The notes below the pieces were generated by a model. That model made no database searches and had not been told where the DNA came from. It saw only the letters and a list, made by a program, of their open reading frames with translations. The position numbers were made by a program, and so were the translations under genes. This document shows, in pieces, positions 38,691 to 64,000 of a stretch of 64,000 nucleotides of DNA. Position 1 is the first letter of the stretch. Each line of letters begins with the position of its first letter. This DNA is from Acaryochloris sp. CCMEE 5410. GTDB lineage: Bacteria > Cyanobacteriota > Cyanobacteriia > Thermosynechococcales > Thermosynechococcaceae. The stretch lies in the NCBI RefSeq assembly GCF_000238775.2, contig NZ_AFEJ02000001.1, positions 1,550,001 through 1,614,000 of the forward strand, in the 5' to 3' direction.

Positions 38691-38729
38691 CCGGAGGTTA
38701 AGTGTGCATCCTACTAGACAGTGACGTTG

Positions 38730-40838
38730 ATGAGTAAAACACCCCCAGGAGAGGCCCCCCATCCCCACTATCCAGGACCAGAGCTGAATCCAACGCTTCT
38801 AGACGAGAACGAGGGGCAGCCCTTGATAGAGAGCTTTCAGCGAGTCAATTTAATCTCCGAAGATTACCTGCGGTTAGCTGTCATTCAACAGGAAGCCAGC
38901 CAATTTCAGCTTTCTTTAGCCACCTATATTCATCAACTCGAACAATATAATCAGGCACAACAGTCTACTAGCCCTCCCAAACCCCCTCTCCTCAAGCCGT
39001 TTTCGATTCTGGATGCCAAGGTAAGTGATTTTGTCGCTTGGCTTGAAATGATTTCGATCATCAAGCTGGCAACGGTCCTGGGGGAAGCAGCTATTCTCAT
39101 TGCTTTTATTTCCTATCTTTTCTCTATCCCTTATCAACAGCAAAAGAAGATAGAAGATGCGCGGAATGTTCTGGTCGATCAAAAGGGGCAACAACATAGT
39201 GATGGCAGAATAGCGGCCCTCAAAACCCTCGATTCACTCTGTGCGAGTAATGCTGGCCTGCAGGCCCCCAAGGCCCAAATGGTCGGCATTCAACTGAATC
39301 AATGCCACAAACTCTCGGTCAGTCTCCATAGTATTCAGCAATGGCCTTTCCAATTTTTCGAGCATCAAGGGATTGATTTATCCCACGCCAACTTAGAACA
39401 GGCCAATCTTGCCCATGCCAATCTTGAAAAAGCCAACTTAAAGGGCAGTAATTTAAAGGGCATCAACCTGAGTGAAGCAAATCTACAGGGCGCAAATCTG
39501 CAAGGGGCCAATTTAGAGGGAGCCAACCTGGAAGGAGCCAACCTGCAAGGGGCTAACTTTACGGATGCAGTATTGCATAAAAGCTTACTCAATAATGCCA
39601 ACTTCACGAAGGCCAATCTAACCCGGGCAAAAATGCACCAGGTTCAAGGAATATGGACCAAATTCAACCATGCAATCCTCCATCGTACGGATTTATACCA
39701 AGCCAACTTGAATCGTTCCATCCTCAAGGGGAGCGATTTGTACAAAGCTAACTTGGAGAATAGCTCCCTCCAATCGGTAGATTTTTTAGACGATGCCAAC
39801 TTGCGATCGACGAACTTAAAAAGGGCCGATCTCTCTAAAGCTAGCTTTTGGGCACTCCATCAACTCAAACGGGCCAAGCACTGGCAGTCTGCCATCAAAA
39901 GTCCAAATTGGATGCAAACCATTGCCCGTCCTCGCTCACCTCGCTTACGAATTGGCTTGATCAAATCAGCCGATAGCACGATCTTTAAAGCCTATGAATT
40001 GGGGATGCGGCGGGCTGCCAATCGGCGGGTAGAAATTTGGAGTTTGCTATCTGCCTCTGGGGTGGAAAATGAAGCCCAAACTATCCAGGAACTGATTGAT
40101 TCCGGGATTGATGCCATTGTGTTGTCTCCAGAGGATCCATTAGGGTCTATCCCAGCCCTTGAAAAGGCTTACCAAGCTGGCGTGGTGGTAATCACGGTGG
40201 ATTTTTGTTTTGACAAAGAAACCGCAAAAGATATGGTGTTTGCCTGTTTCAACACCAATAGCTTAAAGATGGGAGCCGATTCTGCAGAACACCTCACCCA
40301 ATGGGCTGCCACCCATCTCCAGGATCAGCCTTTAAATATTGGTGTGGTGGATAGTGCGGAATATGAACGGTATTACCCCAACTATCAAGGCTTCCTCAAC
40401 GGCATGGCGGCCTCCGACGTTACCTGGAAAGAAGTTTCGTCCGTAGATGCAATTACACAAACCGACATTGCTCACATTAAAGCAATGCTGTCGGAGAATC
40501 CCCAGATCAATATCTTATGGGGCGGATCCAACTTGGCCACAGAACTGTCTGTGGCAGCAGTGGAAGACTTAGGGTTGCAAGCAAAAGTCAAAGTTTTTGG
40601 CATTCTGGATTTATCGAAAGACAAGGCTCGAATGCTATTAGATCCCAACAGTCCTCTACAATCAATCATCGATCAGGCTGGCGTCAAAATCGGCTACAAA
40701 GCCGTCCATACCGCTGTGGAAGTTTTAAGACACAAAAAAACTCAGTACACTGAAGATCCGATAGACCACCGGCTATTGACCCAGACCGATAAAGCGGCTG
40801 TCAAAGAGCTATTAACTGAAGCCAACAGCATTCAGTAG
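38730..40838 (+). CDS. pentapeptide-repeat protein with transmembrane helix and sugar-binding-like (PBP type 1) C-terminal domain
   Basis: ATG 38730 (MSKTPPGEAPHPHYP) is preferred to the GTG at 38721. The 702-residue protein has four parts: a proline-rich N-terminus (about 1-100); one membrane helix, ILIAFISYLF (about 125-140); a long run of pentapeptide repeats (about 210-385) with the A(D/N)LxxAN pattern, e.g. LEQANLAHANLEKANLKGSN; and a periplasmic-binding-protein type 1 domain (about 395-690) like sugar ABC receptors, e.g. IGLIKSADSTIFKAYELGMRR and DSGIDAIVLSPEDP. With one helix, the repeats and the sugar-binding-like domain would lie on the same side, probably periplasmic. This fusion is unusual. 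It follows a substrate-binding lipoprotein gene. Confidence 0.85.
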   Translation: MSKTPPGEAPHPHYPGPELNPTLLDENEGQPLIESFQRVNLISEDYLRLAVIQQEASQFQLSLATYIHQLEQYNQAQQSTSPPKPPLLKPFSILDAKVSDFVAWLEMISIIKLATVLGEAAILIAFISYLFSIPYQQQKKIEDARNVLVDQKGQQHSDGRIAALKTLDSLCASNAGLQAPKAQMVGIQLNQCHKLSVSLHSIQQWPFQFFEHQGIDLSHANLEQANLAHANLEKANLKGSNLKGINLSEANLQGANLQGANLEGANLEGANLQGANFTDAVLHKSLLNNANFTKANLTRAKMHQVQGIWTKFNHAILHRTDLYQANLNRSILKGSDLYKANLENSSLQSVDFLDDANLRSTNLKRADLSKASFWALHQLKRAKHWQSAIKSPNWMQTIARPRSPRLRIGLIKSADSTIFKAYELGMRRAANRRVEIWSLLSASGVENEAQTIQELIDSGIDAIVLSPEDPLGSIPALEKAYQAGVVVITVDFCFDKETAKDMVFACFNTNSLKMGADSAEHLTQWAATHLQDQPLNIGVVDSAEYERYYPNYQGFLNGMAASDVTWKEVSSVDAITQTDIAHIKAMLSENPQINILWGGSNLATELSVAAVEDLGLQAKVKVFGILDLSKDKARMLLDPNSPLQSIIDQAGVKIGYKAVHTAVEVLRHKKTQYTEDPIDHRLLTQTDKAAVKELLTEANSIQ

Positions 40839-41532: not shown

Positions 41533-42300
41533 ATGAGTGATATTCGTGAGTGCTACGAGACTTTTGATCTAGAGCTAGATGCCAGCTTAAGTGATCTGAA
41601 GCTAGCCTATAGAGATCTAGCTGCCGTATGGCATCCAGACCGCTTTACAGATAATCCTAGATTACAGGCAAAAGCAGAGGAAAAATTAAAGCGGATTAAT
41701 AGATGTTATGACATCCTGAAGGCTCATAACTCTCAAAACAGTTCTGCTCATTCTCCACCTAAAGCCACTAAAAAGCCGACTACCCACAAAACAAATAGTG
41801 AACAGAAAAAGCAACCCATAAAGAAACCTGCCGATCTGAGTAGACTAAGGGATCAGCTCCTAATGGGAGATTGGTGCCAAGCAGATCTAGAGACCCAAAA
41901 TATTCTATTGTCATCATCAAATAGACAGTCTGAAGGGTGGCTACGACCCAAAGATGTCGATAACTTACTATATGAAGATCTTCAATCAATAGATAAACTA
42001 TGGAGTGAATTCAGCCATCAGCGTTATGGTTTCAGCATTCAGAAAAAGATATGGGAAAGCTTGAGCTGTCAATCTGCCTTTTGGACCCCCGTATATGAGC
42101 AAAAGTTTGGGGATGCTCTTGGTTGGAGGGAGAACGGTTTTTGGATTAGACCAGAGAAAAGCTTTGAGTATTCACTAGGAGCATCCGAAGGCTGCTTTCC
42201 CAGGTTATATATCTTTTCATTATGGGGATGGTGGTCTTATTCAAACCGCAAAATCGGTAAATTGCGGTTTGAGTTCGAGAGAATTTTCCTTCGTCTCTGA
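41533..42300 (+). CDS. DnaJ-domain / GUN4-domain fusion protein
   Basis: The 255-residue protein has an N-terminal J-domain: IRECYETFDLELDASLSDLKLAYRD-type helices with the HPD motif in AVWHPDRFTDNPRLQ (about residues 30-45). A basic, proline/lysine-rich linker (about 68-100) follows. The C-terminal ~150 residues match GUN4: LLMGDWCQADLETQNILL, the conserved IDKLWSEFSHQRYGFSIQKKIW and a Trp-rich end. Authentic GUN4 binds protoporphyrin IX/Mg-protoporphyrin and activates Mg-chelatase. The N-terminal J-domain would recruit Hsp70, so this may be a chaperone adaptor or a porphyrin-linked protein. Several GUN4-domain proteins in cyanobacteria have other roles. chlH lies about 20 kb away. Confidence 0.85.
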   Translation: MSDIRECYETFDLELDASLSDLKLAYRDLAAVWHPDRFTDNPRLQAKAEEKLKRINRCYDILKAHNSQNSSAHSPPKATKKPTTHKTNSEQKKQPIKKPADLSRLRDQLLMGDWCQADLETQNILLSSSNRQSEGWLRPKDVDNLLYEDLQSIDKLWSEFSHQRYGFSIQKKIWESLSCQSAFWTPVYEQKFGDALGWRENGFWIRPEKSFEYSLGASEGCFPRLYIFSLWGWWSYSNRKIGKLRFEFERIFLRL

Positions 42301-51635: not shown

Positions 51636-51958
51636 ATATGAAAATTTTAATCAATAGTTTACATAGTACTATAGATTCTTTAATCCAGATTTTTTGTAAC
51701 TTAAATTACAATCCTGAGCCATTTTTACCTAGCTACTAAATTTACCCATCGAGAAGTCATAACTGAGTATTTAGATCGCAAAAAAAAAATTGGCAGAATT
51801 AAAATATCGATAATTCAAATAGGTCTATTACTACTAGTGAAAATCACTTTTTAGGTTCATTAACCCTCAACTAACCTTGAAGAAAATTCTAGCTTTTTAT
51901 CGGAATATGTCGATCAGTAGTCTACAAACAAGTTTGACGACATGGAGGAGATGATGAT
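51636..51958. other. AT-rich stretch between glycosyltransferase and murE remnant
   Basis: I see no supported gene. It should contain the promoter of the minus-strand glycosyltransferase. Confidence 0.45.
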
Positions 51959-52099
51959 GCGATCGCACCAGCTAAACCCGGCGATACTATTCTTATTGCG
52001 GGCAAAGGCCATGAAGATTACCAAATTCTCGGCACTGAAAAAATCCATTTCGACGATCGCGAAGTAGCACAAGCAATCTTATCTCAGCGTTTTGGCTAA
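51959..52099 (+). pseudogene. 3' remnant of murE (UDP-N-acetylmuramyl tripeptide synthetase)
   Basis: The frame from GCG 51959 to TAA 52097-52099 gives 46 codons with [20 protein letters not shown] and [13 protein letters not shown]. This is the recognisable C-terminus of MurE, with the conserved GKGHEDYQ motif near the end of the ligase. There is no preceding MurE coding in the window, and the region before 51941 is unrelated. It is a decayed fragment or a 3' end duplicated by a rearrangement. The intact murE must be elsewhere. Confidence 0.82.
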
Positions 52100-52298
52100 C
52101 AACTGCTGATCAGGTAACTCCACTTATCTTCGACGGATTGGTTGATAGTGCCGAATAACCACTGATTCTTCACGTACCACATGAGTTGTAAGAAGTTTTA
52201 TTCAAAGCTTGTGGACTTTGGGGTTGCGCTCAAGACAACATAATTGATGTGATAATCTCACAGAGCTAGCTCTTGACCAATGCCAAGTCTCTGATTCA

Positions 52299-52794
52299 AT
52301 GGCAATTTATCATCGCTTAGAGTCCCCCACTCAGACATCAGAAGATGCCAAGCAACAAGTGATTAGCCAAGAAATCTGGGGCAGACCACCCCGAGGTAGT
52401 GAAACGGCTAAGGTCAAAGCTTATGTGGGTTCCCTACCAACAGGAGCACGAGGGATTGAATTCACAACTGACATTAAGCTAGGGCTTGCTGAAAAAGTCT
52501 GAAACAGCTTGAAACCCCTATAGCTGCGTGATTTTTTCAAGTTATACGAACAACTTAGTGCAAGGTAAAATTGCTTGAAACGTCGCAAAATCGTTAATTG
52601 GCCTTGCACATGAAAATGTTTTCACAAGCTATAACAACCATATATCAATACTTTTGACTTTTTCAGCAAGCCCTAAGCTAGATCCCGGCTCACCACCAGG
52701 ACATGCTTATTGGAGTGGACCTCGAACTGGGGTTAAACTGCAGGGCGACTTCGCTACACTCAAGGTGTTGACCATTATCAATCGTCAACAATGA
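52299..52794 (+). pseudogene. small protein gene of unknown family, split by a 192-bp MITE
   Basis: From ATG 52299 the frame encodes 61 residues, with ISQEIWGRPPRGSETAKVKA and YVGSLPTGARGIEFTTDIKL, up to the target duplication at 52475-52481. The MITE then adds LAEKV and a stop. After removing the MITE and one TAAGCTA copy, the frame continues in register from 52681: DPGSPPGHAYWSGPRTGVKL, ending at TGA 52792-52794. The restored protein would have 98 residues. Its stop overlaps the ATG of the next ORF (ATGA). I recognise no named family; its Gly/Pro-rich core GIEFTTDIKLDPGSPPG suggests a compact conserved domain. The gene is now broken. Confidence 0.75.
52482..52673 (+). mobile_element. 192-bp MITE with 18-bp perfect ends and 7-bp target duplication
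   Basis: The end GGGCTTGCTGAAAAAGTC (52482-52499) is repeated as its exact reverse complement at 52656-52673. The direct repeat TAAGCTA flanks it (52475-52481 and 52674-52680). It has no transposase gene and interrupts a small ORF. Its ends resemble those of common IS1182/IS5-like elements, but this is not verified. Confidence 0.88.
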
Positions 52795-53132
52795 CAAATA
52801 TTTCTGCCTCCAATAAGCTTGTAGAACTCGTTGAGGTTACCTCAGCGGTGGTACCCATTGCTGTATTCCAGCAAAGTCCAGCGGAACTTTCCGAGCAGAA
52901 CTCAATAGAATTTCAAGATGGGTTTGATGACCTAGACTATCTTAAATTCTCGTTATTGCAGTTGCCCTCTGGTAAGCCGACTACCCTTGTCTATCATCAA
53001 AATTCTCCTAACCCAGGCGTTGAAATTTGTGTCATCGCAGATGAATCGAACCGAGAAGGAGTAATCCAAGAGGTTATGCAACTTTTAAATCTACCCACCA
53101 CAGCTTTAATATGCGTGCATCCCGAGATTTAG
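52791..53132 (+). CDS. small acidic protein of unknown function
   Basis: The 113-residue frame starts at ATG 52791, sharing four bases with the stop of the MITE-split small gene (ATGA), so it was probably in an operon with it. Segments include DGFDDLDYLKFSLLQLPSGK and NPGVEICVIADESNREGVIQ; a single domain of alternating strands and helices is likely. No signal peptide or membrane helix is seen. I recognise no family. With its partner broken, expression may be lost or changed. It lies 78 bases from the end of the convergent pPIWI_RE gene. Confidence 0.65.
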   Translation: MTNISASNKLVELVEVTSAVVPIAVFQQSPAELSEQNSIEFQDGFDDLDYLKFSLLQLPSGKPTTLVYHQNSPNPGVEICVIADESNREGVIQEVMQLLNLPTTALICVHPEI

Positions 53133-53210
53133 GACAAGAGATAAATTGGATAGATTCTTCTGCAATAGCAGTACAATCGTAATTTCTGGAGGAAAGAAAC
53201 TATGTGTTCG

Positions 53211-55725
53211 CTAAGGTATTTCTGAATCGTCTTCGTTAAAGGCCCACTCCTTCAGCTTTTCAGCTAGTGATAGTGGCAATGGGTATTCGCACTCATCAGG
53301 AGTCCACCAGTGCAGTGCTCTGAGTTTGTGGGTAATTGCATGATGCAACTCAATTTTTTCGGGTGACGGGGTAGCGAAAATATTATGAGCGCGTGGCTGA
53401 GGAACCTTCCAGCCACTTAATGGTGATGGAACACGAGGAACATCTACACCCTTACGTCGAGATGAATAAGCTTGAAAACGACTCATATTCCTTCGCTGTG
53501 CATTGCTAGTTCTGGGTTTTCGAGCGATGCTCAGTACAGTTTGAGTAAATGATGTCTCTTCGAGGTCACAGGCTTGTGGAACAAATATTCCCCCAGCAAA
53601 AGACGCAGTCTCTTCCTCGAAGTTCTCTGAATCCATTGGCAGACCGTATCCAGTAGGGACTTCGTGATACATCCCATCACGAATACGAATGAGATGAATC
53701 TTGGTGGTAGGTGGATGGTCAGGATCAAATTGACTGTCTTGCAACCATTGCCAATATCGACGGGCGTTCTGAGCATGGGCAAATAGGTAAATATCATCAG
53801 CGCTGGAATACATTAAGCTTAGTTGACTTAACATAGTGTTGATGACTTGCTCCGTTTTCCCTGATTGATTCTTAGCTGCTTGGGCATGGGCCAATTTACA
53901 AATTGCGGCAGGCATGGACAGAAACTCTAGACTTCTCTCCGGCAGCAGAACACCAACCTCATTCTTGTGGATACAGACCAAAACTGGTTCATTGAAGCTT
54001 TTTGAGGCTGTCTTATTATTGCGACTGATGATATAAAAACCAGCATAGACCGTGTTATCAATGCTGCTTGCCTCTATGCTGTCAGAATTCACTTCTGATA
54101 ATGGGATATTTTGGTCAAAGGGCAAAATGGCGTCTAAAATCGCACTCAATGCAGGATTATCAAGATCCTTGACCTCTTTGGTCTCGTGCCCCACTTCATC
54201 GCTCACCTCTGTGGAGACAATGCACTGCGGAACAAGATTATATTTTGGTAGTTGAGATTTTAAGTGGGATTTCGGATCACGCCCATCACGATAGCTAGGA
54301 TGTTGTTTAGAAAGAATTTCAATGATGATTGGAGTCGGTTTATTTGGTTGGTTTTGCTGACCAAATTCTTTAATATGCTGAAGGTTGGGGATGCTCCGAT
54401 TATTCCGCTTTTCTTCCACAATAGGATCTGATAGTCCTTGTAACGGACGAAAATCTAGCTTCAGGCTGTTTCCGAAGTAGTGCTGAGCGACCTTCTCCAA
54501 AGCTGCTTGAACCTCTTCTGTACAGCAGCAAATCAGATGCGTCTGGCTGTCTATACGCTCTTTGAGAAAGTTTTTCACAGATTGATCAAGTTCAGGTAGC
54601 TTACCCTGCGACGGCTTCTTGATTTCTGGATTAGACTTAAATCTCTGTTGAAGGTTGGATTTAGTCTCTCTAGAAATAGACAGCTTCTTCCACGGCTGAG
54701 TCAAGCTGACACTCGACGGCAGCACTGCCTTAATCTGCTGGAGGAAGGCTCTCTCATCTGCGAACGGCACTCCTGTCCCCCATCCGGCTTTTTGGTGGCT
54801 GCGGGCAGGAATCAAAATGTCAGTGTGGTCTGTGTCAAGAAAGTTCAGTGGACTGGCCAGCACATCTGCAATAGCAGGAAGCCTCACAGTTAGGCGTTCT
54901 AGAATCCTAAGTATTCGCTGCCTTTTCCATTGAGGAACATAGTCATCCTCTTCTTGGCGGTAGTTAGCTTCCAGACTAGTGAATGCGTTAGGATCTTGAA
55001 GATTATAGTCACCTAGCCAGGGTTGCGATCTCCTCACGTAGCAGTGCGTCGTTCTCTTCTTTAGCCGGATACCCGATTCTTCCTTCTGCTTGACGATCCA
55101 GCGTTTCATTTTGAAATGCAGGTTTATTTTCCGGGTGTCCAGGTCACTCTGGGTGGAGAGAATGACAGCAACTGATGTCCGATGATTGTGGATTCCTCGA
55201 AATGGGGGCCAGGAGACTAACTCAACTGTATTGCTACTGCGTCCTGGACCGAACAGGTGGATGTTCCCCTAATTGGTATTGGTGCTGGGTGAGCTGTAGT
55301 GCAAGTGCCCATGCAGGTGCCCAATACTCCTGATCCGTTGCAGTAACTTTAGACCAACGAAACTGCTCTGGTCTGCAATATGGCATCAGTGCTGCGTGTG
55401 CTGACTCTGGATAGCAAACCTCAACCCACTTTCTAAAGATCAAGGCAAGGGCCTCTGGCTCAATCAGTTTAGAGGCTAAAAATGCTTGAGGGTTAGGCTT
55501 TTGATCTTTGCCAATTCTCAGACGGTTGATCGCTCGAAGTTGTGGCAGCAGTAACCGGAGCGTACCTAGAAGTGGAGTTGTCGGTGCCCTCTTCTTTGGC
55601 TCATCATAATGGGCCTCGAATTTCTCTAGATTGGGCAGCGGCATTGTATAGCCCGTAATCCCTTCGGTGAGCGTGTCGGTGTACTCAAGGGACAGAGGCT
55701 GAAAGTATTTGTATTTTGTGCTCAA
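53211..55725 (-). pseudogene. pPIWI_RE protein gene (prokaryotic PIWI, DUF3962/RNaseH_pPIWI_RE), frameshifted
   Basis: Two minus-strand frames, 55725-55234 (163 aa) and one open from about 55270 to 53211, join into a protein of about 838 residues. The region between them reads SSNTVELVSWPPFRGIHNHR then TSVAVILST, so the second frame starts well before its first ATG (55109). The join needs removal of one base, for example in the C4 run at 55266-55269. The joined protein follows the pPIWI_RE plan: N-terminal X domain, a MID-type region with IIIEILSKQHPSYRDGRDPK (about 465-485), and an RNase H-fold region with GFYIISRNNKTAS, LIRIRDGMYHEVP, FAGGIFVPQACDLEE and an end like EYPLPLSLAEKLKEW. The TTG start at 55725 overlaps the helicase TGA. 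A MPLPNLEKF start at 55644 is also possible. Confidence 0.82.
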
Positions 55726-58700
55726 AGCTTTACTCCAGTAACAAAATGGGTCAGTCGGTTCAGCGGATGGTAAATCGGGCCATACAGCGTCTCAATGATT
55801 GGGCTAGACTCTCCACCTTTGCTAATCGCATCTCCCAGCAGCGTGCGGACAGCGCGTATCACTGAGTTTTTCTCTGTATCACTAGCTGGATCGCCTTTTG
55901 CAGTATTGGGCATGAAAGCTGCATCGGTGAACCAAATCACGGTCGGACGTCCCCCACGGGTACTGCGTCCAATCAACTGAGTCAGGTTGACAGCTAGAGT
56001 CCAGACCAAGGGATCCTTGAGTGCAATATCTGCAATGGAATCTGGCAAATTAGAGAAAATCTGAGGAACTTCGAGAACCACATCTCGAACCTGTCGGGCA
56101 CGTCTTTGCGTGACCTCAACAGCACGTCGGCCCATGATGTCAATGGTTTCTTTATTGACTGCGCTGACAACAACTTGATTATCGTCTGGACGAGGATGTT
56201 GTCTGACCACAATGACAATGCCGCCGAAGTATGGCTCTCCGCTATTGGGATGCATTAGGTTGACGGCACGAGAGATTGCACCCATCGGAGCAATCAGCAG
56301 TTCTTTACCGCCGTCTGGAAATTCGGTCAACTTAGAACGAGCCACTTGATCGTGGGATTTCCACTGACCATCAGCAACTACATAGGAGGCTTTATCCTGG
56401 TACGGATGCTTGAGCACGTTGTAGAAGGTCTCAGCCTCCGCATAGCTGTTAGTGACCAGCAGTAAATTTTTGCGATCAGCCCCAAAGCTAGTCTCTAAGT
56501 AGTCTTGGAACAGATCAATCAGTGCCTTGCTGTGCTTAGGAGAGCGGCACAGCCCAGAAACCATATGGCCAATATTTTCTGTGCGTCGTTCCCCCTGACT
56601 GCCCGAGATGAAAACGGGATTGCCTGCATCGTCTGAGACAGGGCAGTAGAAAAACTCACTGTCCTGGGCCACAGCTTTCCTTTTTCTAGAGGGAGGCTCA
56701 ATCAACAGTGTCGGTGGCAATTGAACATGGAAAGGATAGGATTGAGCTTGCGTCCCCGAATAGCTGGTTGCGGAGGTCAGCAAGAGGTTCGCTGGGGTCA
56801 TGCCATCCACATTAAATATTGAGTACCACTGACTTAGCAATGCTCTACCTACCGCGATACCGCGAAAAATATTGAGATGTCCTTGCGTAAATTGGGCGCT
56901 CGTTACGGAACCCACTGGAGAATTAGGTAGCAGTCCGTTGAAGTCTCGGGGGGGTGTGATGGGTAAGGTTGATTCCAGGGACAAATCAGCACGCTGTCTC
57001 GCGGAGATATGCTTGCCCAACGCTCCTAAGACGTGTGCGGAGTAGATTGCGAGCTGCAGCAACGTCGCCAGATTAATGATAAAACAGTCAGAATCAGTAG
57101 AGGTAGGTTCCAACGTAGCTAAATCAGTATCCCAGCGTGTTGTGAGGATAAAGTCTTCGCAGTAGGGATGGGGGACCGCCGTCAACAGATCACCAGCTAG
57201 AAGTACACCTGATACTCGCGCCAGACTCTCAACCAGCCTTCGATCAGCAGATTCAAGTCCTGTTAGATCGGGCTGTACAAGATTATCTTGCACCCGCTTA
57301 AAAAGCTCACGATAGCGCTCGTAGCTACGTTCACGTTTGTTAACGGTCTGCTGCCGTACTTTATGAACACTTCGTTCCACATGGGCTAGTCCCGACAGGT
57401 GTTTCGCCAGCTTGTCGAAGAGAGTCCAGGCACTAAAGATCCTTCCTTCCCGTGTGTAGGCTTGTAGTAACCTCTCGATGGCTTGCTTCGAAGATTTACC
57501 CTTCAGACTTTCGGCAATATTCCGTATCAAATACATGAGAGCACCGATACTACGATTAGCGAGATGCCGCTGATCTTCTGAATACTCTAGATAAGGGTCG
57601 TTCAAAACTCCAGGTACAACAACTTCACCTTCCAGAGGACCTGTTACGTGCTGATGAGCTTCTGTTCTTGTCCACGTATCTACAGTCTTAAAAGACGCCA
57701 GTGCAACGGTTGGGTAAAAAATTTCATCCAGCTTGGGCTGAGCTAGGTCCACTTCGTCAATGATGAATAAATCAGTGGTCAGGGCAAGATACTCCAACAT
57801 GGTGAGGTTCTCAGCCAAGTCATGACTGGCCACTCTCTTGTGAATAAAACCTGGCAGAGTCCCAACAATGAGCTGTGCCTCTTTCAATTCGTCAGCATTG
57901 ATATGTCGGGGGCAGATAGGTACCAATGGACAGTCAAATTTCTTCTCGGCCTTGTCTTGAAGCTTTTGAAAGCATGGAGGTCGGCTGCGTTGCCCCTCTG
58001 CGGGTTGGGGAATGCTTGGGTCAGCTAGGGCATAAAGTGGACAGGCTTGACTTAACCATCGAAAGCCAGGATGCGTAAAGGGCTGCTGTGAATTACTGAA
58101 CATCACAGCCTGATTTAAACGACTGAGATGTTTGTGTCGCTCTGATTCACCGATAACGGGTACTGCCCGAATGCCAATCTTCTGAGCAAACTCTAGCCAA
58201 TCTTGAACTTCGCCGACGCTGTTGGTTGCGATCGCAACCCGCTTCCCTCTCTCTATCAACAGGGCCACTAAGCAATCAATTAGAGTGGATTTTCCGCTTC
58301 CAGTTGGTCCCAGGATATGGGCCTGACCATTAATGCAGATAGCCGTTGCGATCTCATCGTTTTGAATATCCCGATATACAGATTGCTGCAAAACAGCTCC
58401 CGCATCATATCCAATCTGAGATTGTAGAGCTGTGCCTTGCGCAAATAAGTCAGTTAGCTCAACCTGGATGGAGTCACAACTGCTTGAGGTGTCGATGTTC
58501 GGGACACTAGAAACGTATGACGCACCAATGGACGCCAGCGTTGCCGGAATGCGGATATTTCGTTGCAGCTTTGGATTGAGATTGAATGTATATTCTCCAA
58601 CCGGAGCAGGTTTATATTCTTGCGTGAGAAAGTGCAGTGGGTCTTCCGTCAATACACGTTCATAGGTGGTATAGCGCTCAAGAACCCTGTTTCTGGTAGG

Positions 58701-59045
58701 CGTGATTGTATTTGCATCGTAGTCAATGTCGAACCCAAGCCAGCTTGAGATTGGACTTTCAGCCAGTTCGTCATAGGCGCGCAGGGCTAGCTCCCAACTA
58801 ATGGAACTCTGAAACTCCGATGCTAAGTGGCGTAGATGCGTCAGAATATGCCACTGATCGTTTGTGATCCCAGGTTCGCGGTACCCTTGCAGCAACCAAT
58901 GAGCCTTCTCAATCGGCTGATGGGGGAAGTAAGTAAGCAGTGCATACAGCAATAGCTCTGTACGGATAAAAACTGAAACCTTCGGCAACCCAATGCCTGA
59001 AAACTTTCGTCTGAGAGATACTAGCCAGGTTGTCCTATCCCTCAC
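55722..59045 (-). CDS. DinG-like superfamily 2 helicase of the pPIWI_RE island
   Basis: The 1107-residue protein starts at GTG 59045, overlapping the nuclease gene's TGA. Helicase motifs in order: Walker A in HILGPTGSGKSTLIDCLVAL (about 240-250); a Cys set C-x22-C-x13-C-x5-C beginning QACPLYALAD (about 333-376), as in XPD/DinG 4Fe-4S domains; Walker B in LTTDLFIIDEVDLAQPKLDE (about 428); motif III-like LLTSATSYSG (about 758); LLLVTNSYAEAETFYNVL; and motif VI NLTQLIGRSTRGG (about 1022). It should unwind duplex or R-loop-type substrates with ATP. Location between the nuclease and pPIWI_RE genes is that of the reported three-gene island. No premature stop is seen. Confidence 0.87.
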   Translation of the reverse strand: MRDRTTWLVSLRRKFSGIGLPKVSVFIRTELLLYALLTYFPHQPIEKAHWLLQGYREPGITNDQWHILTHLRHLASEFQSSISWELALRAYDELAESPISSWLGFDIDYDANTITPTRNRVLERYTTYERVLTEDPLHFLTQEYKPAPVGEYTFNLNPKLQRNIRIPATLASIGASYVSSVPNIDTSSSCDSIQVELTDLFAQGTALQSQIGYDAGAVLQQSVYRDIQNDEIATAICINGQAHILGPTGSGKSTLIDCLVALLIERGKRVAIATNSVGEVQDWLEFAQKIGIRAVPVIGESERHKHLSRLNQAVMFSNSQQPFTHPGFRWLSQACPLYALADPSIPQPAEGQRSRPPCFQKLQDKAEKKFDCPLVPICPRHINADELKEAQLIVGTLPGFIHKRVASHDLAENLTMLEYLALTTDLFIIDEVDLAQPKLDEIFYPTVALASFKTVDTWTRTEAHQHVTGPLEGEVVVPGVLNDPYLEYSEDQRHLANRSIGALMYLIRNIAESLKGKSSKQAIERLLQAYTREGRIFSAWTLFDKLAKHLSGLAHVERSVHKVRQQTVNKRERSYERYRELFKRVQDNLVQPDLTGLESADRRLVESLARVSGVLLAGDLLTAVPHPYCEDFILTTRWDTDLATLEPTSTDSDCFIINLATLLQLAIYSAHVLGALGKHISARQRADLSLESTLPITPPRDFNGLLPNSPVGSVTSAQFTQGHLNIFRGIAVGRALLSQWYSIFNVDGMTPANLLLTSATSYSGTQAQSYPFHVQLPPTLLIEPPSRKRKAVAQDSEFFYCPVSDDAGNPVFISGSQGERRTENIGHMVSGLCRSPKHSKALIDLFQDYLETSFGADRKNLLLVTNSYAEAETFYNVLKHPYQDKASYVVADGQWKSHDQVARSKLTEFPDGGKELLIAPMGAISRAVNLMHPNSGEPYFGGIVIVVRQHPRPDDNQVVVSAVNKETIDIMGRRAVEVTQRRARQVRDVVLEVPQIFSNLPDSIADIALKDPLVWTLAVNLTQLIGRSTRGGRPTVIWFTDAAFMPNTAKGDPASDTEKNSVIRAVRTLLGDAISKGGESSPIIETLYGPIYHPLNRLTHFVTGVKL

Positions 59046-60103
59046 AACAATGCCCTCTTCGCCTGCTTGACTAATTCTGACTCTGAGAGTATAGGAGGCT
59101 CTCCGACATACTGAGCCTCAATCGTTGCTTGATAGGCGAGGTTGTTCCAGCGATAGTCAGGGACGATAAAAAAAGATGTCGACTGTCCAATATCAGGAAT
59201 CTCATCTTGCCCCAGCGTGTGAACTAGCTTTGTAGCGCTCCCCCAGTCTTTGGCGTCGACGGCCCAAATCTCTCCGTTTGGAAAGGTTACTTTCAGGTCT
59301 GCTTGATCAAGCTGTGGCCACAGTTCGACTGTCAAGCCCATATCCTGCAAAGTTTTTGCTAGGCGCAACTCCAGAAGAGAAGGTCTAATCAAGCAAATCA
59401 CTGTGTCCTCTATTGGTGCTCTGCTCACTTCTTCTGTTAGGGGTTTGCAATAGCCAAGCTCTGCAGCCGCACAATCCAAGTAACCGCCACAGGTTTTACA
59501 AAGCGGTAGCGTACTGGACTGTGGCGGGGCTTCCCGGTATGCCTGCATGAGAAAATCCTGCACAGACTCTATTTCTGGGTTGTCCGACCGAAAACGGGCA
59601 ATCTCAAATTCCGAGGGAAAGGGATGCTCAGCAATAAAGCGACGGATAGATACGTAAACACTGTCAGGTAGGCTGAGTCTTCTAATTTCATTCATCAGGT
59701 CGAGAATGTAGCTTTGATTTTGATCTCGCTCAAGATTTAAGGCATATTCACTGGCCCATGCTTCGCATTCCTCAGACGGTCGCGATAGTTCTTCAATCAG
59801 CGGCTCACCTGGGAAATCAACCAACTCAGCAAAATCAGGGTCTATTGCTTCTGTTGATTTGCGGGCAGCCTCAATCAAGCAGAGGATAGAGGGGTGCTTC
59901 ATTTTCCTGCCTTTCGGTTCATCACCCTGCAGTAGCCATTTCAGGCTCAATGATTGGAAGGCTTCGTATAATGGCTGTGGGAATGGCTGAGCCGCATCAA
60001 CGATGTATGCAGGCTGACCATGATTGATGCGATCGCAGACAGTCACGAGCCCCTTACACAGCTTAATAAATAGAATTTCTTTTGGATTGAATTGTTTATA
60101 CAT
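59042..60103 (-). CDS. REase-fold nuclease protein of the pPIWI_RE island, with zinc-ribbon-like motif
   Basis: The 353-residue protein (ATG 60103) has a helical N-terminal part, a C-x2-C-x6-C-x8-C type motif CKTCGGYLDCAAAELGYCKP (about 202-222), and a C-terminal restriction-endonuclease-like core. That core shows RPSLLELRLAKTLQDMG with a possible Glu, DQADLKVTFPNGE and WAVDAKDWGSATKLVHTL, giving D...D-x-K as the metal-binding active site (about residues 262 and 279-281). It matches the third gene of pPIWI_RE islands. The product would cut DNA or RNA. It leads the operon: its stop overlaps the helicase start (GTGA), and the promoter must be in 60104-60330. Confidence 0.85.
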   Translation of the reverse strand: MYKQFNPKEILFIKLCKGLVTVCDRINHGQPAYIVDAAQPFPQPLYEAFQSLSLKWLLQGDEPKGRKMKHPSILCLIEAARKSTEAIDPDFAELVDFPGEPLIEELSRPSEECEAWASEYALNLERDQNQSYILDLMNEIRRLSLPDSVYVSIRRFIAEHPFPSEFEIARFRSDNPEIESVQDFLMQAYREAPPQSSTLPLCKTCGGYLDCAAAELGYCKPLTEEVSRAPIEDTVICLIRPSLLELRLAKTLQDMGLTVELWPQLDQADLKVTFPNGEIWAVDAKDWGSATKLVHTLGQDEIPDIGQSTSFFIVPDYRWNNLAYQATIEAQYVGEPPILSESELVKQAKRALL

Positions 60104-60330
60104 TTGCCCTTGAGACGATTATCAAGTGTCTACAGCATTGCTTTCCGTCTCACAGATCGATGCCAACATCAGCACTATACCTGCTAGGCTTTTATGGGAT
60201 TTGATGAGTTAGATTACTTTAGTACAAATTTACTAAAATAACAAGCTTTCTCGTTGTGGAAACCTATATTTGCAATAACAATGCAACCTAGAAAATCTAC
60301 CTTTTATGTATCAATAGACAGAGCTAGACA
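60104..60330. promoter_or_regulatory. divergent promoter region between pPIWI_RE operon and toxin-antitoxin pair
   Basis: This 227-bp AT-rich region separates the nuclease start (60103, minus) from the UPF0175 start (60331, plus). It should carry both promoters. I see no strong palindrome that would serve as an operator. Confidence 0.55.
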
Positions 60331-60585
60331 ATGCATAATCTTTCCATTCAGCTACCTGATGATGTTTTTGCCACTTTACGTAAAGATCCTGAAGAGCTTG
60401 CACAAGAGATGCGAATTGCGGCTGCTGTGAAATGGTATGAGCTTGGGGAAATTTCCCAAGGTAAAGCTGCCGAGATCTCTGGTTTAAATCGGGCAGAATT
60501 TATTAACGCTTTAGTTCGGTATAAGGTTTCACCTTTGCAATACACAGCAGAGGAATTGATTGATGAACTTGCAGATGCCAATTGA
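60331..60585 (+). CDS. UPF0175 family antitoxin
   Basis: The 84-residue protein matches UPF0175: an N-terminal strand IQLPDDVFATLRKDPEEL, then AAAVKWYELGEISQGKAAEI as the first part of a helix-turn-helix and SGLNRAEFINALVRYKVSPL, ending in EELIDELADAN. These proteins are the usual upstream partner of DUF3368 PIN-like toxins and are thought to bind both toxin and promoter DNA. Its stop overlaps the start of the toxin gene. It is divergent from the pPIWI_RE operon. Confidence 0.9.
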   Translation: MHNLSIQLPDDVFATLRKDPEELAQEMRIAAAVKWYELGEISQGKAAEISGLNRAEFINALVRYKVSPLQYTAEELIDELADAN

Positions 60586-61066
60586 GAGGGTTGTCGTTGA
60601 TGCCTCTCCCTTGATTATTCTGTTTAAAGGTCAGCTAGAACAGCTCTTGCCCAAGCTATTCAACGAAATTATCGTACCGGCCGCTGTTTGGGAAGAAGTA
60701 ACTGATAGCAAAGAGGATATTGCAGCACGGGCATTACCAACCACGTCATGGGTTAAACGACTGGAGCTTTCGGAAATTTCTGGTGAAATTTTCGCCTGGG
60801 GATTAGGTGCTGGAGAGTCAGAAGTCTTGAGTTATGCATTTAACCACCACCAATACTGGGCTATTGTTGATGACAAAGCAGCTCGTCGCTGTGCGAAGAC
60901 CTTGAGAATCCGAACATTAGGAACAGGAGGTCTTCTTGTGCTGGCAAAACGTAGAGGGGTGATTCCATCAATCATCCCAGCGTTGAAAGCCATTGAGTGT
61001 GCTGGTCTGTGGCTATCGCAAGATGTAATCAAATTGCTAATGCAGCAGGCAGGAGAGGATGATTAA
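60575..61066 (+). CDS. DUF3368 PIN-like toxin
   Basis: The start is taken as ATG 60575 (MPIERVVVDASPLI); 60563 is an alternative. Both lie inside the antitoxin end, giving translational coupling. The protein, about 163 residues, shows the PIN-type acid set: VVVDASPLIILFK (first Asp), IIVPAAVWEEVTD (Glu), LGAGESEVLSYAF (Glu) and YWAIVDDKAARRCAKTL (Asp pair). DUF3368 is the toxin family that pairs with UPF0175; PIN toxins are RNases. The pair at the border of the pPIWI_RE operon could stabilise the island. Confidence 0.9.
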   Translation: MPIERVVVDASPLIILFKGQLEQLLPKLFNEIIVPAAVWEEVTDSKEDIAARALPTTSWVKRLELSEISGEIFAWGLGAGESEVLSYAFNHHQYWAIVDDKAARRCAKTLRIRTLGTGGLLVLAKRRGVIPSIIPALKAIECAGLWLSQDVIKLLMQQAGEDD

Positions 61067-61070
61067 TCCT

Positions 61071-64000
61071 TTAAACGCTCACCCCTTCTAATTCTTCATC
61101 CGTTAGCTCGTACAAGGCTCGGAGTTGATCCAAGGTATCTTGATCAGGACTCCAAAATCCTCGACCCTGCGCCTCCAGCATTCTGCCTACAATATTGCGA
61201 AAGGCTTCGGGATTGGCTTGGCGAAGTTTTTCCGCCATCTCAGCATCCAATGCATAGGTATCTGCAGCTTGGTCATAGACCCACCCTTCCTGGAAATCAG
61301 CAGTGCCACCCCAGCCAATGAGTGCCGTCATCCGCTGAGAAATCTCGTAGGCCCCGCCAGAGCCTTGATCCGCCATTGCATCTGCCCATTTAGGATTGAG
61401 AAGCTTAGTTCGGTACTCCATCCGCAACAGCGAATCTAAATCACGAGGGGTCGTGTCTTTGGAGAAACTTTCAACAAAATTGGCTTTGACCTTGCTGCCC
61501 CGCTGTTGCTCCGCTGCTAACTTCAGACCACCTGTATTCGCATAATATTCCTGAATATCCGTCAAACCATATTCCACAGAGTCAATTTCTTGGACGATTT
61601 GCTCTGTACTCTTCAGTAAGGTTTGCAGAACCTCAGGGCGGGCTTGGCCTTTGTCATTACGACCATAGCTAAAAGCATTCCGATCGCTCCAGGTTTGCCC
61701 CAACTCATCCGAAGATTCCCAGTTGGAGTCCGTCACCCGGTCATTGACCAAAGAGCCAAAATCCCCGGCAGGGTTAGAAAAGAGACGAGCAGAGACGTTC
61801 TCGACTCCCTGCTCTTTCAAGGCTAGGGCATGTTTGCGAATAAAGTTCTGGTCTGGGGGTTCGTCTGCTTCCGCCGCTCGTAAGAACAGGTCATCCAACA
61901 GCTCAATAATATTGACAAAGCTATCTCGGAAGATGCCAGACAGATTCGCCAAAACATCTACACGGGGGTGATCGAGCTGATCTAAGGGCGTCAGACCATA
62001 GCGAACAATTCGTCCTGTCCCTTCTTTAATCGGTTCTGCCCCCACGAGTTCTAGAAGAATACCGATGGATTCCCCGCGAGTCTTAATGGCATCTAATCCC
62101 CACAGCATCACGGCGACGGTTTCTGGGTAGCTGCCTTTTTCTTCCAGGTTTTGCTCCAATATCTTACGAGCAATCTCCCGACCTCGCTCATAGGCGGCAG
62201 GGGAGGGCATCCGATAGGGGTCAAGGGCATGGATATTTCGTCCTGTGGGTAAGACCCCGGGACCATCACGGAGCAAGTCTCCACCAGGGGCTGGGGGTAC
62301 GTATTCTCCGTTTAAGCCCCGCAGTAAGTTGGTGAGTTCATCCCCAGTTTGGGCCAGTAGACTCCGGATTTGTAGGGCTTCTTCCAACTTAGGCGTACTG
62401 CCATTGAGTTCAAACCGTTGGCGAATTTGATCGGATTCTTCACCCGTAGCAACGGCTGCGATCTCATCCTCTGGTAACTCTTCTCCAAAGTAAGCCTGAA
62501 GGTAACTTTCCAGCTTTTCAGCATCGGGGGATTCCCCTAGTACATGCAGCCCAGAAGAGAATAACCGCGTTTCTAAAACTTGCAGATATTCATATAGCTC
62601 CACTAGATAGTGGTTAAAAGCGTCGGCACTAAACATGCGGGCATTCTCAGGGGTAAATTCAATACCCAACTGCTTGGCTTCCTGGAACGGACAATCTGCA
62701 TCAATTCCCGCATCAATAATCTTTTTGCAGATGGCCTCCCGCAGCACCGCATTTTTTTCTGGATCTTCTCGGTATTCCTGGATCAGATCGCGCAAGGCGG
62801 CTAGCTCTTTGTAGAGTTCAGCTCGACCATAGGGTGGGACATTATGGGAGATCAAAACGCCATATCCTCGACGCTTTGCCAAGATCGACTCCGAAGGATT
62901 ATTAGCCGCATAGATATAGAGGTTAGGAATGTTCCCCAACAGCACATCCGGCCAGGAATAGCCGGTATTCCCCAGGGGGCTGCCGGGGAGCCATTCGACG
63001 GTGCCGTGCATGCCAAAATGAATCACCCCATCGGCTTGGAAGCCATTTTGCAGCCATTTGTAAAAGGCCGCATATTGAGGATGAGGCGTTAAATCCCGCT
63101 CAAACATCAGACGCATGGGGTCACCGGATAAGCCTAGCGGCGGCTGCACACCAATCCAGACATTCCCCATCTGAATGCCGCCGACGCTAAATTCCTCGCC
63201 ATTAGTCTTAATCCCCGTCCCCGTTAGGGAGTCCCACTGCTTTTCAATCCGATGGGTCAGCAAATATCCCAGCCACCGTTCCAGCTGGCGGACATTGACG
63301 GAGGTGCTTCCAGCATGACCATTCATCTGGGCTGGATCGACTAAGCCATTATCTGCTTCCCGCACCCAGTTGACGATTTCTTCGCCATCTTCTGGTAAAT
63401 CTCCCACGTTATAGCCTTGGGATTTTAGGGATCTGAGCAGACTTAAGAGAGATTTCGGCACATTCAGTAGCGCTGCAGTTCCAGTCGCCCCGTATCCCGG
63501 TGGAAATCCATAGAGGAGAATGGCTAACTTCCTATCGGCTATTGGTTTCTGGCGGAGGGCAATCCACTGTTTCAGCCGTCCGGTGAGGCGATCGACCCGT
63601 TCGGGCACAATGTAAATATCATTACCAACCAGCCCACCTAGGGGAATCGTATCAATGGCGCCATCGAGTTCGGGCAGGGCATAGAGCACCACACTCTGCA
63701 ATCCACCGATTCCTTGGCGAGTCCAGGAATAAATATCTTGAATTAGCAAAGGGGCGGCAACCAGATAAGGCACATTCTTGGCACTGAGAATCTGCTTGGC
63801 CACGGCCACTTGCCGTCCCGCTTCCATCGATCCTGCGGGACCGCCGACGAGGGGGAAACCAATTGTCGAGACAATCGCATCTACCTCCGCTGCCTTTTCA
63901 GACAAAGACAGAATTTCCTTGGTGCCCTGTTGCCGTTGATCCTGTTCGTGGCGGGTGGTCATTAAATCCCGCACGGCCACATGGCCTTCCACCCCGTTAA
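61071..64000 (-). CDS. chlH: magnesium chelatase subunit H, partial (continues past right edge)
   Basis: The minus-strand frame is open to the right edge (about 976 codons visible); ChlH is about 1330 residues, so the N-terminal third is missing. The visible part includes NGVEGHVAVRDLMTTRHEQD at the start, GFPLVGGPAGSMEAGRQVAV, HFGMHGTVEWLPGSPLGNTG, LSNPAGDFGSLVNDRV-like segment (LFSNPAGDFGSLVN) and the end IVGRMLEAQGRGFWSPDQDT. ChlH binds protoporphyrin IX and, with ChlI and ChlD, inserts Mg for chlorophyll. CobN (cobalt chelatase) is related; the C-terminus and cyanobacterial form fit ChlH. It is convergent with the toxin gene and ends four bases after it. Confidence 0.9.
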   Translation of the reverse strand, partial: NGVEGHVAVRDLMTTRHEQDQRQQGTKEILSLSEKAAEVDAIVSTIGFPLVGGPAGSMEAGRQVAVAKQILSAKNVPYLVAAPLLIQDIYSWTRQGIGGLQSVVLYALPELDGAIDTIPLGGLVGNDIYIVPERVDRLTGRLKQWIALRQKPIADRKLAILLYGFPPGYGATGTAALLNVPKSLLSLLRSLKSQGYNVGDLPEDGEEIVNWVREADNGLVDPAQMNGHAGSTSVNVRQLERWLGYLLTHRIEKQWDSLTGTGIKTNGEEFSVGGIQMGNVWIGVQPPLGLSGDPMRLMFERDLTPHPQYAAFYKWLQNGFQADGVIHFGMHGTVEWLPGSPLGNTGYSWPDVLLGNIPNLYIYAANNPSESILAKRRGYGVLISHNVPPYGRAELYKELAALRDLIQEYREDPEKNAVLREAICKKIIDAGIDADCPFQEAKQLGIEFTPENARMFSADAFNHYLVELYEYLQVLETRLFSSGLHVLGESPDAEKLESYLQAYFGEELPEDEIAAVATGEESDQIRQRFELNGSTPKLEEALQIRSLLAQTGDELTNLLRGLNGEYVPPAPGGDLLRDGPGVLPTGRNIHALDPYRMPSPAAYERGREIARKILEQNLEEKGSYPETVAVMLWGLDAIKTRGESIGILLELVGAEPIKEGTGRIVRYGLTPLDQLDHPRVDVLANLSGIFRDSFVNIIELLDDLFLRAAEADEPPDQNFIRKHALALKEQGVENVSARLFSNPAGDFGSLVNDRVTDSNWESSDELGQTWSDRNAFSYGRNDKGQARPEVLQTLLKSTEQIVQEIDSVEYGLTDIQEYYANTGGLKLAAEQQRGSKVKANFVESFSKDTTPRDLDSLLRMEYRTKLLNPKWADAMADQGSGGAYEISQRMTALIGWGGTADFQEGWVYDQAADTYALDAEMAEKLRQANPEAFRNIVGRMLEAQGRGFWSPDQDTLDQLRALYELTDEELEGVSV

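Follow-up and report, generated by a model that had tools for sequence, protein, structure and literature searches.

Three overlapping minus-strand genes in a 64,000-nucleotide stretch of the cyanobacterium Acaryochloris sp. CCMEE 5410 (contig NZ_AFEJ02000001.1; hereafter the window) are, as judged from their sequences, a divergent variant of the pPIWI-RE island and not a strict pPIWI-RE system. They encode, in this order, a restriction endonuclease (REase)-fold protein, a DinG-type helicase, and a PIWI protein that lacks both the acids and the glutamate (Glu) typical of the family. We consider it moderately probable that the locus represents a divergent clade of pPIWI-RE-type restriction islands and arrived by horizontal transfer, that in this clade a guide-sensing PIWI protein works together with the helicase and the REase, and that the copy in this strain, whose genome comprises 8.09 Mb in 23 contigs, has been inactivated. 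The island occupies positions 53211 to 60103 of the window, and the three genes with 4-base overlaps described in a first-pass annotation were recovered as open reading frames (ORFs) as follows:

59042 to 60103, minus strand: REase-fold gene, first of the island; 353 residues, ATG start; Y helical domain, zinc-knuckle-like cysteines, nuclease core
59042 to 59045, minus strand: 4-base overlap GTGA; helicase start GTG, REase stop TGA
55722 to 59045, minus strand: DinG-like superfamily 2 (SF2) helicase gene; 1107 residues, GTG start; Z domain and helicase motifs
55722 to 55725, minus strand: 4-base overlap TTGA; PIWI start TTG, helicase stop TGA
53211 to 55725, minus strand: PIWI region, third gene, in two frames

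Strict order of the genes and overlapping ends are features of the three-gene islands predicted in 2013 by Burroughs, Iyer and Aravind, whose queries included an Acaryochloris REase (PMC3702460). Identical start codons, GTG and TTG, and identical overlaps were seen in three other genomes (G420, G536, and G591; G numbers denote the genomes compared) and are therefore not due to chance. The assignment to the pPIWI_RE family made by the first-pass annotation was borne out by intact siblings, by the description of the family in PMC3702460, by PADLOC, which named the products PprRE, PprDinG, and PprPIWI, and by Pfam, in which the X, MID, RNaseH, REase, and Z domains were matched, and Y weakly. An Rfam search near the island gave no match, and no promoter or terminator was detected upstream of it.

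The first gene product combines the Y domain (pPIWI_RE_Y, PF18156; 1.7e-4, under its cut-off) and zinc-knuckle-like cysteines with a predicted REase fold (pPIWI_RE_REase, PF18154; 1.7e-26, above its cut-off). The D...DAK and cysteine motifs noted previously correspond to E245, D269, and D283-A-K285 and to the knuckle C202xxC205, respectively. The second product is a DinG-like SF2 helicase with the Z domain (pPIWI_RE_Z, PF18155; 5.9e-29) and a PADLOC match to PprDinG (1.7e-105). Its Walker A, DEVD, and QLIGR motifs were present as expected (GPTGSGKST, residues 246 to 254; DEVD, residues 430 to 433; QLIGRSTR of motif VI, residues 1023 to 1030), together with four iron-sulfur (Fe-S)-type cysteines (C335, C358, C372, and C378). 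The nuclease residues of the REase and the Walker A motif, four cysteines, DE box, and motif VI of the helicase were kept in all nine islands aligned; the second zinc-knuckle cysteine pair of the REase was less regular across the nine. Sequence searches against solved structures yielded nothing useful, the sole match being to the JetC P-loop (E value, 0.064).

PIWI residues of the clade

The PIWI protein of the window groups with those of five relatives (G420, G536, G591, G561, and Nostoc sp. CHAB 5715), and this clade of six differs from most relatives at catalytic and hallmark positions. At the second RNase H catalytic position, all six carry histidine in a motif HxQNAR (His650 in the window), whereas most relatives outside the clade have Asp or Glu there. 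The acid in strand 1, at the first catalytic site, is absent from the clade as well. Thus, acids matching D525 and D610, the catalytic residues with which PsPIWI-RE of Pseudomonas stutzeri performs RNA-guided cleavage of single-stranded DNA (Huang et al. 2022; PMC10991935), were not found, the position of D525 being placed by spacing. The loss of these acids argues against cutting by PIWI itself.

Of the two hallmark residues in the beta-sheet extension, the arginine is invariant in the clade (R682 in the numbering of the read-through protein), and the Glu is replaced in all six members by A/S-H-N (PRxHNI). For the window copy, neither MAFFT, HMMER, nor hhalign placed an acid near the Glu site. 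Most PIWI proteins aligned outside the clade keep this Glu; exceptions are Calothrix PCC 7716 p3 and Microvirga. Absence of the Glu does not necessarily imply lost function, because an E718A mutant of PsPIWI-RE stayed active (PMC10991935). Sibling PIWI genes are under purifying selection, with ratios of nonsynonymous to synonymous substitution rates (dN/dS) of 0.144 to 0.226, mostly ∼0.15, so that the Glu of the family's name appears dispensable in a lineage that is still being maintained. In a profile comparison, the PIWI protein matched the HK-01-like clade with 99.5% probability and the G125-like clade (A8) with 1%.

Since all tested features of a three-gene island were found except the hallmark Glu and an intact PIWI gene, we file the locus as a variant of this already known, though sparsely studied, family. 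Gene order, overlapping ends, a REase with Y domain and Cys motif, an Fe-S DinG-like helicase with Z domain, and a PIWI protein with X, MID, and RNase H domains and the hallmark Arg are shared with the published islands. In contrast, the clade lacks the hallmark Glu and has His for a catalytic Asp, the PIWI gene of the window is interrupted, and its REase is compact (353 residues versus ∼380 to 510 in most relatives). PsPIWI-RE belongs to the same protein family, has the same MID-PIWI architecture, and also adjoins a DinG helicase gene; it differs in having the two acids and in cutting. We tentatively suggest, while regarding it as rather doubtful, that the clade is a distinct mechanistic type whose PIWI protein would serve purely for sensing, perhaps of R-loops or of some other structure instead of cutting by guide, with all cutting left to the REase.

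The complete island of G420, a member of the Nostocaceae, shares 68% (REase), 69% (helicase), and 58% (PIWI, full length) identity with the window. Among 218 genomes of the same family, a search retrieved intact islands in G536 and G591, which like G420 show the order and GTGA/TTGA coupling of the window, and further copies in G561, G547 (apparently the CHAB 5715 genome), and, as a fragment, G538. In a helicase tree, the window, G420, and CHAB 5715 formed a group with 100/100 support whose stem measured 2.2 changes per column; the group is firm and the placement of its long stem uncertain. Because the PIWI proteins of the intact siblings G420, G536, and G591 cannot plausibly cut, a division of labor among guide sensor, helicase, and REase is directly testable in them.

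Interruption of the PIWI gene in this strain

The first-pass annotation had described the third gene as a pPIWI_RE protein with MID and RNase H regions. Both regions were confirmed by Pfam, but the gene was found to be split over two frames:

55234 to 55725, minus strand: 5' piece of the pPIWI_RE gene; 163 codons, TTG start, ends at an out-of-frame TAG
53211 to 55268, minus strand: remaining open frame; 685 codons, covering the remainder of X together with MID and RNaseH; ATG at 55109 as first standard start codon
55251 to 55266, minus strand: frameshift lesion; 16 nt versus 24 nt in relatives (net -8), at the otherwise invariant YQLGENSFKFLFGPG

The PprPIWI profile ran over positions 2 to 159 in the first frame and 159 to 717 in the second, which indicates a single frameshift with nothing else missing. 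On the separate pieces, Pfam scored RNaseH_pPIWI_RE at 2.6e-19, MID_pPIWI_RE at 4.4e-6, and pPIWI_RE_X at 2.6e-7 and 1.5e-6. When the frames were joined at the unique word TAGC (GGGG being ambiguous), the read-through protein exceeded the cut-offs for X, MID, and RNaseH, and X rose to 1.6e-21. All five relatives were in frame at the lesion and had the invariant YQLGENSFKFLFGPG in common, the region measuring 24 nt in G420 and CHAB 5715. Programmed frameshifting or conserved recoding was rejected, as none of the five needs it.

The frameshift is probably real and not a sequencing error, because a net change of -8 nt is atypical of homopolymer errors and because no comparable split was seen among ∼30 further genes of the window that were surveyed. 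Whereas a functional, complete island would have an uninterrupted PIWI gene, this one carries a frameshift, and a complete system is therefore unlikely to be made in this strain. Searches of the rest of the genome found no further member of the REase or PIWI families. The PIWI/helicase ratio of nonsynonymous substitution rates (dN) was ∼1.31 for the window versus ∼1.39 for the intact pair G420-G591 and thus not raised; with no relaxation visible, the inactivation, if real, looks recent. This copy has thus probably been inactivated recently, its PIWI sensor probably not being made, an apparently recent case in which an island has lost its sensor but kept the frames for nuclease and helicase open.

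A natural difference in loop length together with an assembly error could instead account for the break. An island that is intact and working, its break being an assembly or sequencing artefact or being read through by frameshifting, would fit the stop-free remainder of the PIWI gene, the unraised dN, and 58% identity to an intact sibling over the whole length. We consider it unlikely, since the five relatives share an invariant sequence and are in frame there without recoding, no slippery site is conserved, the change amounts to 8 nt and not to a one-base homopolymer slip, and no other surveyed gene of the window is split.

Damaged islands were also encountered elsewhere. The first survey of islands showed PIWI to be interrupted or truncated in the window, G042, G070, G378, and CHAB 5715. 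In G042, damage was confined to PIWI, with REase and helicase open; in the independently found island of Nostoc sp. CHAB 5715, a deletion fuses the remains of helicase and PIWI. Of six damaged islands examined, five had an open REase frame; the exception was G561, where it is split. There, a frame of 1725 codons (L095) joins the helicase, minus its last ∼235 residues, to the whole PIWI protein, which may represent decay or a natural fusion. A bias of lesions towards PIWI is not claimed, given the small number of islands and the unequal gene lengths.

Several relatives, among them rhizobial plasmids, have unusual PIWI regions. On a Hymenobacter plasmid (L074, 8685 to 11605), three annotated ORFs, possibly a broken gene, follow an apparently full-length REase and helicase. 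A Bradyrhizobium elkanii plasmid (L076, 527 to 9826, minus strand) encodes a giant pPIWI_RE protein of 3100 residues with AAA_22 near residues 2417 to 2543, and another giant pPIWI_RE gene spans 10.2 kb on a Microvirga plasmid (L075, from 8669 onwards). In Azospirillum ramasamyi (L073), a distinct 7.2-kb gene annotated as RNaseH comes after PIWI.

Proposed mechanism and distribution

In the model of Burroughs, Iyer and Aravind, PIWI detects hybrids of DNA and RNA in invader DNA and then recruits the DinG helicase and the REase (PMC3702460). In the intact siblings, a PIWI protein without cleavage acids would most likely hold a short guide, find matching or hybrid-forming DNA of an invading plasmid or phage, and recruit the Fe-S DinG-like helicase, which would open the DNA for cutting by the REase-fold subunit. 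In Acaryochloris sp. CCMEE 5410, a short deletion in the first part of the PIWI gene would shift everything after it out of frame, and production of the sensor is therefore improbable. The use of a guide, the type of target, the formation of a complex, a defense phenotype, and the inactivity of this copy are all inferred. The first-pass annotation had stated that no settled mechanism was known; this overlooked the biochemistry of PsPIWI-RE (PMC10991935), which leaves the mechanism of the island itself unsettled.

Sensing by PIWI and cutting by REase fit the residues observed, and the logic would resemble that of DdmDE, in which an Argonaute-family protein with a guide acts as the sensor and recruits a helicase-nuclease (PMC12904381). 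Unlike the island, DdmDE consists of two genes, uses a classical prokaryotic Argonaute and not pPIWI_RE, and unites helicase and nuclease in one protein. The classical Piwi domain (PF02171) had no match in the whole genome or among the Pfam hits of the island proteins. Type I/III restriction and Mcr systems likewise pair a REase with a helicase without obvious self-cleavage (PMC3702460), but the island of the window lacks a methylase or specificity subunit and has PIWI instead.

Of 386 cyanobacterial genomes, 14 carried PprPIWI; within the genus, the RNaseH_pPIWI_RE domain occurred in one of seven genomes. Related helicases occurred on 25 plasmids, where annotated neighbors of the relatives included an Eco29kI-type restriction-modification pair, a restriction endonuclease, and DNA methyltransferases with helicases. 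Relatives were absent from a single-sequence scan of genome contigs, from scans of viral contigs, from phage records, and from a DNA-level plasmid search. Patchy occurrence, a variable chromosomal site (see below), plasmid-borne relatives, and frequent damage together suggest gain and loss, and hence the pattern of accessory conflict genes; horizontal acquisition carries the same moderate confidence as the explanation as a whole. Of the conflict system proposed in the first-pass annotation, inter-element conflict is thus supported by context only; the frameshift and the missing acids and Glu qualify that interpretation.

Three further points, in addition to the unraised dN and the possible assembly error, weigh against the proposed explanation. 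Predicted structures of PIWI and REase, built from alignments of two sequences, reached predicted local distance difference test (pLDDT) scores of 30 and 40, respectively; because of these low scores from shallow alignments, fold claims for the island proteins rest on profiles. A literature search found no published defense experiment on any three-gene pPIWI-RE island, nor a published test of a whole island. Finally, the one phenotype reported, ciprofloxacin sensitivity and filamentation upon deletion of piwi-re in P. stutzeri, points to replication (PMC10991935).

The P. stutzeri phenotype, and the action of DinG helicases on R-loops (PMC3702460), would suit a housekeeping role in replication or repair, such as R-loop removal or the rescue of replication forks, instead of defense. 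This role appears improbable for genes found in so few genomes of the genus and phylum, often decayed, plasmid-borne, and at a variable site, all of which is unlike housekeeping genes. Even less probably, REase and helicase would form a two-gene restriction unit in this strain with PIWI dispensable. Both genes keep open frames in the window as in G042, but every complete island keeps PIWI, purifying selection acts on it in the siblings, and damage to the last gene of an operon need not touch the others. Re-initiation at ATG 55109, yielding a 632-residue MID-PIWI protein that acts like a short Argonaute, is very hard to credit: although that frame contains the end of X, MID, and RNaseH, no obvious ribosome-binding site precedes the ATG, ∼125 nt separate it from the TAG, most of X would be lost, and no relative examined has this form.

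Chromosomal site and other features of the window

The island lies at a site beside the 3' end of chlH that varies within the genus:

53133 to 61071, no strand assigned: variable segment beside the chlH 3' end; present here, replaced by a 1.7-kb TPR and Fic/Doc module in G293
60331 to 61066, plus strand: UPF0175/DUF3368 pair, toxin-antitoxin-like, PADLOC candidate PDC-S70; divergent from the island and directly beside chlH

In G292, murE directly adjoins chlH with a gap of ∼18 bp, while G293 and G295 have TPR and Fic/Doc proteins at this flank. In the window, the island and the UPF0175/DUF3368 pair, which probably belongs to the same variable segment, sit between chlH and a 113-residue ORF (52791 to 53132) that has no Pfam match and occurs at the same site in G293. 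A remnant of the murE 3' end was noted near chlH (51958 to 52100 and 61071). The murE-chlH gap is a candidate integration hotspot. A 196-bp insertion at 52480 to 52675, absent from the G293 site, resembles a miniature inverted-repeat transposable element; its terminal inverted repeats are perfect over 20 nt (TAGGGCTTGCTGAAAAAGTC).

Two further genes of the window are of separate interest. GUN4 domains are partners of the Mg-chelatase H subunit, and a DnaJ-GUN4 fusion protein is encoded at 41533 to 42300, ∼19 kb from the gene for that subunit. A 705-residue protein encoded at 38721 to 40838 combines pentapeptide repeats with a periplasmic-binding-protein domain, an unusual pairing.

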